37,097 nt of DNA from a virus. This document shows, in pieces, positions 12 through 36,625 of the stretch (position 1 is its first letter; every line of letters begins with the position of its first letter). A program made the position numbers and the translations under genes. The stretch lies in the IMG/VR virus record IMGVR_UViG_3300037189_016759, positions 1-37,097 of that record; one strand, given 5' to 3'. The notes beneath the pieces were generated by a model. The model had not been told where the DNA came from, ran no database searches, and was given only the letters and a program-made list of their open reading frames with translations.

Positions 12-87
12 ACGCCTATAGCTTAACTGGATAGAGCAGTTGCCTCCTAAGCGACCGACGTGGGTTCAAGTCCCGCTGGGCGTACCA
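12..87 (+). tRNA. tRNA-Arg (anticodon CCU), prophage insertion site
   Basis: The cloverleaf folds by eye. The acceptor stem ACGCCTA pairs with TGGGCGT (one G-T wobble), followed by discriminator A and an encoded CCA. The anticodon stem GTTGC/GCGAC encloses the loop CTCCTAA, giving anticodon CCT (arginine, AGG codons). The T arm is GTGGG-TTCAAGT-CCCGC. The gene is intact because the prophage re-supplies an identical 3' end. tRNA 3' ends are standard targets of P4-type tyrosine integrases, and an integrase follows 163 bases downstream. Confidence 0.96.
71..87 (+). other. attL core, 17-bp direct repeat
   Basis: The bases TCCCGCTGGGCGTACCA recur exactly at 36609-36625. This copy lies in the 3' part of the T arm plus the acceptor stem and CCA of the tRNA-Arg gene. 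Flanking bases differ between copies (G versus T before, C versus G after), so the identity block is exactly 17 bases. It defines the left boundary of the prophage. Confidence 0.95.
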
Positions 88-20948: not shown

Positions 20949-22142
20949 ATGGCAAATCAAATCTTAACCCACCAAATGATTGCGCGTGAAGCCGCTAAAA
21001 TGCTTGAAGAAGAAGCACCGTTTTTAGCAAACATCAACAAAGGACGCCAAGACGAATTTGGCACCGACACACAAGGTTACAAAAAAGGCGATACCGTCAC
21101 CATCAAAATCCCAACTGCGGGTAAAGTGTTTGATGGTGCGCAGTTTGCTGGCGGCGGCTCAGGCACTGACGTAGTAGAAGATAAAGTCAACTTGACGCTT
21201 GACACCCAAAAGCATGTTGCATTGCAGTTTGGTGCCAAAGAAAAACTGCTAAACATCACTGACTTTAAAGACCGTATCTTGCGCCCACAAATGCAGACCC
21301 TAGCGTCTGTCGTTGAAGCTGATTTGACGATGCGCGGCGTGATTGGCACACCCAACCAAGTGGCGATGAACTTGGCAGGCTCAAATCCATCTAACGCATT
21401 GGCATTGGCACGTGCCAAGTTAAACCAGTATCTTGCGCCAAAAGGTGATCGCAATGCGTTAATCACCAGTACCGCTAACGTGGCGTTAAGTGGCGAAGTA
21501 TCACGCATGTGGAACCCAACCAAGACCAGTGAAAAAGCCTATATTGACGGCTTCGTGGCTAATGCGTTTGGTCAAGATATCTTTGAACATCAATCCATTC
21601 CAGTTTTTGCCAATGGTACAGCCGCAGGCATTACCGTGTCAGGTGCAAGTCAAGGCGGTAGCACGTTGACTATGGCGGCTTCAACCGCTGGCACGTTGGT
21701 AGCCGGCACTGTGTTTACTATTGCAGGCGTTAACGCTGTCCATCCGCTCACCGGCGCTGATATGGGCACATTGCAGCAATTTGTGGTCAAGGCGACTGCT
21801 ACCGTTGGTTCTGCAACCGCAGTAAGCATCTACCCAGCCATTAACCCAACCGCACCAAACAAAACCGTTACTGCTTCACCTGCCAATGGTGCGGCTGTCA
21901 CTGTGGTATCGGTCAATGGTCCACAAAACTTGGTATTCCACAAAGACGCATTTACCGCAGCATTTGCACCACTGCCAGTCTTGGCAAGCTGTGAAGGTTA
22001 CACCGCACGTCTGCCAAGTGGTGTAAACGTGCGTGTAATGACGTTTGGTGATGGTAACAACGATATCGAGCGTACTCGTATTGATGTGTTGTATGGCTTC
22101 CAAACTGTACGTGGTATCCATGCAAGCCGCGTAACGCAGTAA
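20949..22142 (+). CDS. Major capsid protein, P22 gp5-like
   Basis: This 397-residue HK97-fold coat protein has the P22-type N-terminus (NQILTHQMIAREAAKMLEEE, FANINKG-like LANINKGRQDEF) and core TVTIKIPTAGKVFDGAQF. The C-terminal part has FAPLPVLASCEGYTARLPSG and RIDVLYGFQTVRGIHASRV. Residues about 225-330 are Thr/Ala/Val-rich and beta-like, matching the inserted telokin-like I-domain of this family. Length is slightly below P22 gp5 (430). A strong terminator follows at 22158. Confidence 0.94.
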   Translation: MANQILTHQMIAREAAKMLEEEAPFLANINKGRQDEFGTDTQGYKKGDTVTIKIPTAGKVFDGAQFAGGGSGTDVVEDKVNLTLDTQKHVALQFGAKEKLLNITDFKDRILRPQMQTLASVVEADLTMRGVIGTPNQVAMNLAGSNPSNALALARAKLNQYLAPKGDRNALITSTANVALSGEVSRMWNPTKTSEKAYIDGFVANAFGQDIFEHQSIPVFANGTAAGITVSGASQGGSTLTMAASTAGTLVAGTVFTIAGVNAVHPLTGADMGTLQQFVVKATATVGSATAVSIYPAINPTAPNKTVTASPANGAAVTVVSVNGPQNLVFHKDAFTAAFAPLPVLASCEGYTARLPSGVNVRVMTFGDGNNDIERTRIDVLYGFQTVRGIHASRVTQ

Positions 22143-22157
22143 TCACATTAACCCATG

Positions 22158-22187
22158 ACAGGCGGCTTCGGTCGTCTGTTTTATTTG
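22158..22187 (+). terminator. Post-coat terminator with UUCG tetraloop
   Basis: ACAGGCGGC (22158-22166), loop TTCG, and GTCGTCTGT (22171-22179) form a nine-pair stem including G-U pairs, then TTTTATTT. It probably caps the abundant coat mRNA while later genes are read through. Confidence 0.85.
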
Positions 22188-22198
22188 AGAGATAAACG

Positions 22199-22858
22199 AT
22201 GAAAAACTACGGACATAAACTAGGTGTTATTACTGCAATGGCTTTAGTGGCAACTTTGCCAGAGCGAAAACTTACCAAAGAATTTTTGGAAAGTGAAATC
22301 GATAAAGTCGAGTATAACCGATTTGGCGAAACAAACACTCACTGCACCATCACCACCAAAAGTGGATTTTCATTTACTGGTGAAAGTGCGTGTGTTGACC
22401 CTAATAACTTTGACCAAAAAATTGGCGAAAAGTTTGCCTATGAAAACGCATTTAATAAAATGTGGACGCCATATGGGTTTTGGCTGCACAAGGCGCTGGC
22501 TGACCATGATAATCGATTGCAACCACCAAGCGATGATAACAAAATTGAAGCGCAGGACTGGATGATTCCAGATGATGCGACATTTAGCTTTGGTGATGCG
22601 GTAGAGATATTAAAAAAAGGCGCTCGCGTGGCGCGTGCCGGTTGGAATGGCAAGGGTATGTTTTTGTCATTGGTTAAAGGTCGTGATACTGACTACCACG
22701 TTAATAGTGAAGTTTTCGGTACTGGCAATGATGGCAACTCACAAGACCAACTTCCAGTGTTAGATGCTATCTACATGAAAACTGCTGACAACAAACTTGT
22801 GCCTTGGCTTGCTAGTCAAACCGATGTACTCGCCGAAGATTGGCAAATTGTGGAGTAA
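22199..22858 (+). CDS. Gp49-like / Tad2-like (DUF2829) fusion protein
   Basis: This 219-residue protein joins two known phage domains. Residues about 34-100 match the Gp49 family (NTHCTITTKSGFSFTGESAC, KFAYENAFNKMWTPYGFWL). Residues 127-219 match DUF2829, now known as the Tad2-like domain (FSFGDAVEILKKGARVARAGWN, then KLVPWLASQTDVLAEDW). Tad2 of phage SPO1 sequesters the cyclic ADP-ribose signal of Thoeris defence; other members of the domain family may have other roles. The conserved GW and WLASQTD-LAEDW motifs are intact. It follows the coat terminator and precedes head-completion genes. Anti-defence activity here is inference. Confidence 0.85.
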   Translation: MKNYGHKLGVITAMALVATLPERKLTKEFLESEIDKVEYNRFGETNTHCTITTKSGFSFTGESACVDPNNFDQKIGEKFAYENAFNKMWTPYGFWLHKALADHDNRLQPPSDDNKIEAQDWMIPDDATFSFGDAVEILKKGARVARAGWNGKGMFLSLVKGRDTDYHVNSEVFGTGNDGNSQDQLPVLDAIYMKTADNKLVPWLASQTDVLAEDWQIVE

Positions 22859-33392: not shown

Positions 33393-35156
33393 ATGGCAAC
33401 AGCTTTGCACTCCGCTCGCACTCGTTTTTTTGATAAATGTGGCAAGCCGCTATGTGGCGGCACTGTATATACGTATCAAGTCGGTACCACAACTGCAAAA
33501 CCTACTTACACAGATGTAAGTAAAAATGCAGTTAATACCAATCCTGTTGTTTTAGATAGTATCGGCTCAGCAGCTATTTTTTTAGAAGGTGCGTACCGCG
33601 TGCGCGTGCTAGATCGCAACGGCGTGTTAGTTGAAGATATCGCATATGTCGAATCTTGGATTTCAGCGTCTGAAAAAGATGCACTTAACAAAAGTATTCA
33701 AGATGTCAGCGAGTCACTATCTAGTCATGTTGCAAAAACCGATAACCCTCACGGGGTTACTAAAGCACAAGTAGGACTTGGGAATGTTGATAATACCGCC
33801 GATATTGATAAGCCTGTAAGTAATGCAGCAAAATTAGCCATAAATGAAGCTACTGCAGGATTAGCTGATAAAGCCTATGTTGATGATGAGATTAACTCTC
33901 TTTTGGGCGATTTAAAGACGGGGGCGTTGGTTGGTTCGACGGCTTTTGCCACTAAAGCCGCTTTGATTGCAGATACAACACTTGCAGACGGTGCGTATGC
34001 ACTTGTTGTCAATGACATAGATGCAAACAACGGTTTGTATAAAAAAGTTGACGGTATATGGCAGTATCAAAGCTACAACAATCCGACTGTTAAAATTACT
34101 GCTAACGTAGAGCTTTATAATACATCAAACAATGTTGATGGTGTATATGTATCAAGTGATGGCAAAAGTATCGGTAGTGCAAGCGGGTGGACAATAGCTG
34201 CTATACCTGTTTTGAGCGGTCAAACCTATGTTTTGCAAGCAGATGCTATTACAAATAACACTTATATTGCTGTTACTTATCGCAGCAAGGCGGACATAGC
34301 TACAGGTGCGACAAACGGAATTTTGCCGCTGGATTGGGATAATGTTGATCACCCAAATCAGCGTATTTTTACAACACCTACCGATGCTAAGATGATTTTT
34401 TTTAGCATTAAAAATCAAACCGATTTAGATATCACACAAGGTTTATCAGTTAAATTATTAGACCAATCGACGGCTAACAAAGTTATCGCAATCAACGGAT
34501 TGAAGGTAGCAAGTACAGTCACTCAAATATCCCGACTGGACAATAAAAAGTGGTGCGTCATCGGTGATAGTATCACAGAGCATAATTTTCGCACTAATAA
34601 AAACTACCATGATTATGTCAAAGATAGCGTAAACAATCTGATAGTTTACAACTATGGTCAAAGTGGAACTGGGTATTATGGGCGTTTTAATGTCGCCGAC
34701 ACAATCACAGAGACCGATATTGATATTATCAGCGTGGCATTTGGTACTAACGACTGGGGGATATCAACTAAAGACTTAGGCGCATTTTTAGACACAGACA
34801 CAAGCGCAACAATTAGTGCGTGTATCAATATCTGTCTGCAAAAATTAATTGCTAAATTTCCCACGAAAAAAATCGTTTTGTTTACGCCACTTCCGCGCGC
34901 AGACGCATTTGGTGGTGTTAAAAATGTCGTCAATTACACGCTTGATGAATTGGCACAGCTTATCAAAAAATACGCTGATTACTACTCGTTACCCTGTCTT
35001 GATATGTTGCATATTAGTAATCTGCATCCTTGGAACGCCACCGCAAACGACTACTACTTTAAAGCAGTGGGGTATGAAGCTGATGGACTACACCCTAACG
35101 ACAACGGTCATAAATTGTACGGTGATAAAGTCAAAGCATTTTTAGAGACTATTTAA
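33393..35156 (+). CDS. Tail fibre/spike protein with C-terminal SGNH hydrolase domain
   Basis: Residues 1-95 of this 587-residue protein are a P22-spike-like head-binding part (GGTVYTYQVGTTTAKPTYTD, GAYRVRVLDRNG). Residues 112-140 carry the fibre collar motif DNPHGVTKAQVGLGNVDNTAD. A beta-rich middle follows. Residues 385-587 are an SGNH/GDSL esterase with block I GDSIT (Ser393), a Gly block YGQSGTG (421-427), block III GTND (Asn453) and block V DGLH (Asp564, His567). It probably binds the host surface and removes acyl groups from capsule or LPS. It replaces the P22 tailspike. Confidence 0.9.
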   Translation: MATALHSARTRFFDKCGKPLCGGTVYTYQVGTTTAKPTYTDVSKNAVNTNPVVLDSIGSAAIFLEGAYRVRVLDRNGVLVEDIAYVESWISASEKDALNKSIQDVSESLSSHVAKTDNPHGVTKAQVGLGNVDNTADIDKPVSNAAKLAINEATAGLADKAYVDDEINSLLGDLKTGALVGSTAFATKAALIADTTLADGAYALVVNDIDANNGLYKKVDGIWQYQSYNNPTVKITANVELYNTSNNVDGVYVSSDGKSIGSASGWTIAAIPVLSGQTYVLQADAITNNTYIAVTYRSKADIATGATNGILPLDWDNVDHPNQRIFTTPTDAKMIFFSIKNQTDLDITQGLSVKLLDQSTANKVIAINGLKVASTVTQISRLDNKKWCVIGDSITEHNFRTNKNYHDYVKDSVNNLIVYNYGQSGTGYYGRFNVADTITETDIDIISVAFGTNDWGISTKDLGAFLDTDTSATISACINICLQKLIAKFPTKKIVLFTPLPRADAFGGVKNVVNYTLDELAQLIKKYADYYSLPCLDMLHISNLHPWNATANDYYFKAVGYEADGLHPNDNGHKLYGDKVKAFLETI

Positions 35157-36608: not shown

Positions 36609-36625
36609 TCCCGCTGGGCGTACCA
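36609..36625 (+). other. attR core, 17-bp direct repeat
   Basis: This is an exact copy of the 3' end of tRNA-Arg (positions 71-87) with no tRNA body around it. It marks the right boundary of the prophage; host sequence resumes afterwards. Confidence 0.95.

Follow-up and report, generated by a model that had tools for sequence, protein, structure and literature searches.

The window, a stretch of viral DNA of 37,097 nt, is a Moraxellaceae prophage inserted at tRNA-Arg(CCT), and the DNA to the right of the probable right attachment site was 97% identical to a Moraxellaceae chromosome (Table 1). A gene for a protein of 219 aa, beginning with ATG, was located 56 bp after a P22-type coat gene, with a terminator-like hairpin in the gap. 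Hairpins were found at the equivalent place in the related loci L003 and L005/L084, and in L004 upstream of the corresponding gene. The first 21 residues as well as the rest of the protein were kept in L003 (83% identity) and L004 (63% identity), and the start codon is credible because of this conservation over the whole length.

Table 1. Coordinates of the fusion gene, its domains and the associated features in the window
Feature	Position	Strand	Evidence
tRNA-Arg(CCT), left attachment site of the prophage	12..87	+	ARAGORN; last 17 nt recur at 36609-36625
P22-type coat gene, directly 5' of the fusion	20949..22142	+	PHROG 283 major head protein, E 2e-94
Terminator-like hairpin (T-rich tail) in the gap between coat gene and fusion	22157..22180	+	10-bp stem
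Acb4-Tad2 fusion gene, 219 aa	22199..22858	+	Conserved from end to end in L003 and L004; AlphaFold2 mean pLDDT 84
Acb4 domain, residues 25-99	22271..22495	+	PF13876 E 3e-18; PDB 9e4w by sequence E 0.005, by fold E 1e-5
Linker, residues 107-128	22517..22582	+	Low model confidence; pLDDT <50 at 115-119
Tad2 domain, residues 130-218	22586..22852	+	PF11195 E 4e-24; SPO1 Tad2 by sequence E 4e-19, by fold E 1e-8
Probable right attachment site, 17-nt copy of the tRNA 3' end	36609..36625	+	Flanking DNA to the right

A first-pass annotation made from the sequence alone had described this ORF as following the coat gene and as joining a Gp49-like domain (residues 34-100) to a full DUF2829 pattern (residues 127-219). 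The ORF does lie directly 3' of the PHROG 283 coat gene, the C-terminal domain matched the Tad2-like Pfam family PF11195 far above its curated cut-off (85.5 bits versus 25), and the quoted motifs GDAVEILKKGARVARAGWN and WLASQTDVLAEDW were both present in the protein. The Gp49-like assignment was borne out by a match to PF13876 (66.4 bits versus a cut-off of 27), but the identity of that family had been overlooked, as Acb4, an anti-CBASS sponge first found in phage SPO1 (PMC11722364), belongs to PF13876 ('Gp49/Sf6 gene 66'). Sequence searches of the PDB returned the Acb4 structure 9e4w for the N-terminal part and SPO1 Tad2 for the C-terminal part. Since PF13876 is the Acb4 family and solved members of both families were matched, the protein joins two sponge families that have each been characterised on their own. 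Searches with NCBIfam and PADLOC found nothing.

An AlphaFold2 monomer model built from 90 sequences was confident for both domains and weak in the linker, the length of which differs widely among fusions. A Foldseek comparison of this model to the PDB returned 23 Tad2-family chains, the best being 8smf (Tad2 with gcADPR; TM 0.76 of the target), followed by 13 Acb4 chains with 3'3'-cGAMP, the best being 9e4w (TM 0.65-0.75 of the target), and these were the only matches below 0.001. In the model, the N-terminal half has the Acb4 fold of a three-stranded sheet with helices as in 9e4w and the C-terminal half has the Tad2 fold as in 8smf.

The motifs GWNGK-M-F, KTADNK and SQTDVLAEDW were common to the window domain and SPO1 Tad2 (gp34.65, PDB 8SMF; other solved members include ModTad2, 9EIB, and HgmTad2, 8KBJ). 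The loops that line the gcADPR pocket of Tad2 have been described (PMC12043709) and were near identical between the two proteins in a sequence comparison made without ligand superposition; judged at that level, the Tad2 pocket elements are conserved in the window protein. Unlike SPO1 Tad2, the window domain makes up the C-terminal half of a longer protein, and the variable stretch that separates the conserved motifs comprises 51 residues versus 45 in SPO1. The earlier suggestion of a signal sponge remains the favoured interpretation of the Tad2 half, although it had been made without recognising the partner half as Acb4. Ligands differ between Tad2 relatives and include gcADPR, His-ADPR and cGG. 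The PF11195 members 8kbi and 9kzr, which are labelled AcrIIA7 or 'Inhibitor of Type II CRISPR-Cas system', also matched the window domain, so that this half could be read as an AcrIIA7-type anti-CRISPR instead of a Thoeris sponge. We regard this as very improbable as SPO1 Tad2 was the closest solved relative both by sequence and by fold, and structural work on the 8kbi protein has also captured it with a cADPR isomer and with cGG bound, i.e. as a sponge; the tie of the window protein to AcrIIA7 would be limited to a relation in sequence via PF11195. A separate proposal, that Acb4-linked Tad2 domains are without the long insertion tied to dinucleotide binding, was rejected as the motif-to-motif length showed no difference (p 0.28).

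SPO1 Acb4 (gp1.3, PDB 9E4W) is a tetramer that binds cyclic dinucleotides and blocks CBASS. The window domain resembles it in Pfam membership, fold and core residues, and differs in being fused to Tad2 and in several ligand contacts. The stacking residue F48 and the hydrophobic residues F62, I66 and L89 (SPO1 numbering) were kept, while the guanine readers K36 and E49 were replaced by T45 and S58, and the phosphate contacts Y57, T70 and K81 by V66, F79 and T90. Positions V56 and N63 also differed. Because several SPO1 contact residues were replaced, the ligand preference may differ from that of SPO1 Acb4. Replacements of this sort were common among relatives, and gp48 of phage N4, which was 46% identical to the window domain over 56 core residues and alike in its pocket pattern, is also without most of the SPO1 contact residues. 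To our knowledge, N4 gp48 is the nearest experimentally supported Acb4. It has published Acb4 activity and was both required for and sufficient to trigger Panoptes, which is expected of a cyclic-nucleotide sponge (PMC12657230), and therefore a pocket of the N4 gp48 type works in vivo.

Chang et al. (PMC11722364) report that Acb4 resembles dsRBD proteins in structure, which raises another reading in which the N-terminal half binds and acts on RNA of the host or the phage, with Tad2 as a passenger. There is only a slight chance of this, as 3'3'-cGAMP was bound by all eight of the eight Acb4 homologues tested in the same study (PMC11722364) and the best solved match to the window domain was cGAMP-bound Acb4. 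A sponge for cyclic dinucleotides is the preferred reading of the N-terminal half.

Acb4 and Tad2 were encoded as one ORF in approximately 20 distinct records, a hand count from the census after repeat fetches of one contig were removed, and because the single ORF recurs in this manner the fusion is not a chance event. Carriers included Moraxellaceae prophages, the Pasteurella phages Pm86 and Pmp13, and loci from a Campylobacterota MAG and a Verrucomicrobia MAG. The Pasteurella phage proteins (AWY03314.1, XYO02325.1) were 51% identical to the window protein over 90%, and their gene adjoins lysis genes whereas that of the window adjoins the coat gene. Bacillus phage SBSphiC was rejected as a cultured carrier of the fusion, since the tblastn match crosses a stop and a look at the upstream sequence revealed no Acb4 domain.

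Among 80 viral loci seeded with Acb4, thirteen had Acb4 fused to Tad2, twelve had it directly beside a Tad2 gene and none had the two further apart, while among 79 loci seeded with Tad2 carrying an N-terminal module here called IGTK, Acb4 was directly adjacent in 25 and further away in one. Together this gave 50 fused or adjacent cases versus a single distant one, where the informative part is the contrast of adjacent and distant and not the fractions, as the sets were chosen by similarity, are partly redundant and do not give population frequencies. Phage N4 (L325, record 33632-34485) has the Tad2-domain gene gp49 immediately 3' of gp48, its Acb4 gene. The two sponge families are thus present in N4 as overlapping neighbouring genes, as two proteins where the window has one, and N4 gp49 has the extra N-terminal IGTK module. 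No test of an effect of N4 gp49 on Thoeris was found in the literature searched.

Fused proteins appeared in several places in a tree of the Acb4 domain, with at least four changes forced by well-supported branches, each of which may be a gain or a loss in a tree of 75 columns only. A single clade of fused proteins was rejected (p-AU 6e-9, two long branches removed). Close relatives with Acb4 alone exist, and two pairs had the same or nearly the same Acb4 without and with a Tad2 tail, namely L170 (87 aa) and L005 (181 aa), and L171 and L083. The Acb4-only relatives, the rejected single clade and the recurrent adjacency of the genes point to repeated joining or splitting of Acb4 and Tad2. No description of the fusion or of its repeated origin was found in the literature search, although an earlier mention is possible; Chang et al. 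mention unspecified extensions only (PMC11722364). Acb4 and Tad2 are themselves known families.

Building on the domain membership, predicted fold, pocket-element conservation and recurrent fusion or adjacency, each of which is directly supported, the fusion is predicted to be a dual counter-defence sponge for CBASS and Thoeris-type signals, and we consider this the probable function. The N-terminal Acb4 domain would bind and hold CBASS cyclic dinucleotides (3'3'-cGAMP and relatives) and the C-terminal Tad2 domain would hold Thoeris ADP-ribose-type signals (gcADPR isomers or His-ADPR), so that both defence systems would be inhibited by the one protein. Solved structures show homotetramers for Acb4 as well as for Tad2, so a tetrameric fusion could hold both pocket sets, at a predicted four for Acb4 and two for Tad2. 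The same tetrameric state means that either domain could scaffold the other, and in a competing explanation one half alone is the active sponge and the other an oligomerisation scaffold or a binder of a different, non-immune ligand. The replaced SPO1-type contacts in the Acb4 half fit such an arrangement, as does the tree, on which the Tad2 tail is gained or lost so that one half can be dispensable. We nevertheless consider it rather unlikely, as the family-conserved cores were kept in both domains and N4 gp48 is functional with a similar pocket. The dual sponge could be tested with a single purified protein for joint neutralisation of cyclic-dinucleotide and ADP-ribose signals, and the N4 gp48-gp49 pair, with gp48 a demonstrated Acb4, is a ready laboratory model. 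Known sponges were found family by family, and the recurrent fusion suggests selection against both signal classes together. Since Panoptes is triggered by sponges, a combined sponge may also come at a cost, and this could explain why the tail is variably present.

Both targets, of the Thoeris and the CBASS type, exist in the host family. By matches to individual genes, ThsB_TIR was above cut-off in 17 of 199 Moraxellaceae genomes and a SMODS nucleotidyltransferase (CD-NTase) in 27 of the 199.

The position between coat and head-completion genes was common to the window, L002, L003 and L005/L084, and in L004 the fusion followed another type of coat gene and a decoration gene. A minor virion protein, either structural or injected with the DNA, might be expected at such a place, and packaging or a structural role had been raised in the first-pass annotation. 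The position was variable among relatives, however, as the fusion was in the lysis region of Pm86 and Pmp13, between terminase and portal in L008, upstream of the portal gene in L009 and beside an exonuclease gene in L086. Because these positions are unrelated, a virion role is disfavoured and has a very low probability; the family also consists mostly of small stand-alone proteins, and in the window the terminator-like hairpin separates the coat gene from the fusion. For the dual sponge, expression would be late and driven by the head operon, at the time of synthesis of a coat protein able to trigger Thoeris. Major capsid proteins can act as triggers of Thoeris (PMC12578639), and production of a sponge together with the coat protein or shortly afterwards would for that reason be sensible. 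It is a conjecture that the coat-adjacent position may matter since Thoeris senses capsids.

The IGTK module of approximately 75 aa was recurrently fused N-terminal to Tad2, including in L039 (4782-5267), L100, L089, L325 (N4 gp49) and dozens more, with the pattern Y-IGTK...PMTR.EYN..RGW...GYLVEY.DGG...GY.SWSPK.VF..AY. It matched no Pfam family, and in a model of an IGTK-Tad2 protein the IGTK part was confident and had no fold match in the PDB, with only the Tad2 part matching solved folds. A single ORF from the Verrucomicrobia MAG (L088, 5755-6585) appears to hold IGTK, Acb4 and Tad2 in a row. In L027, L204 and L238 the crAss001_48 domain (PF21825), a domain of unknown function, was located C-terminal to Acb4 where Tad2 would be, and IGTK was also present in L238. 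The crAss001_48 tail was rejected as a relative of a solved sponge as a PDB sequence search gave no match.

We tentatively propose, with less confidence than the dual function itself, that phages use a combinatorial kit of small modules that bind immune signals (Acb4, Tad2, IGTK and possibly crAss001_48) and are repeatedly fused, split and juxtaposed. If so, IGTK and crAss001_48, candidate counter-defence domains by guilt by association, would represent sponge or counter-defence domains not described before, and fusing such modules would generally enable one polypeptide to block several signalling defences.

A plasmid of Chromobacterium phragmitis (L331, 2122-2958) featured a 278-aa ORF adjoining a pair of genes for IGTK-Tad2 and Acb4. 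This ORF had a weak and divergent Acb4-like match of 21 bits, below the cut-off, preceded by an N-terminal part without an assigned family.
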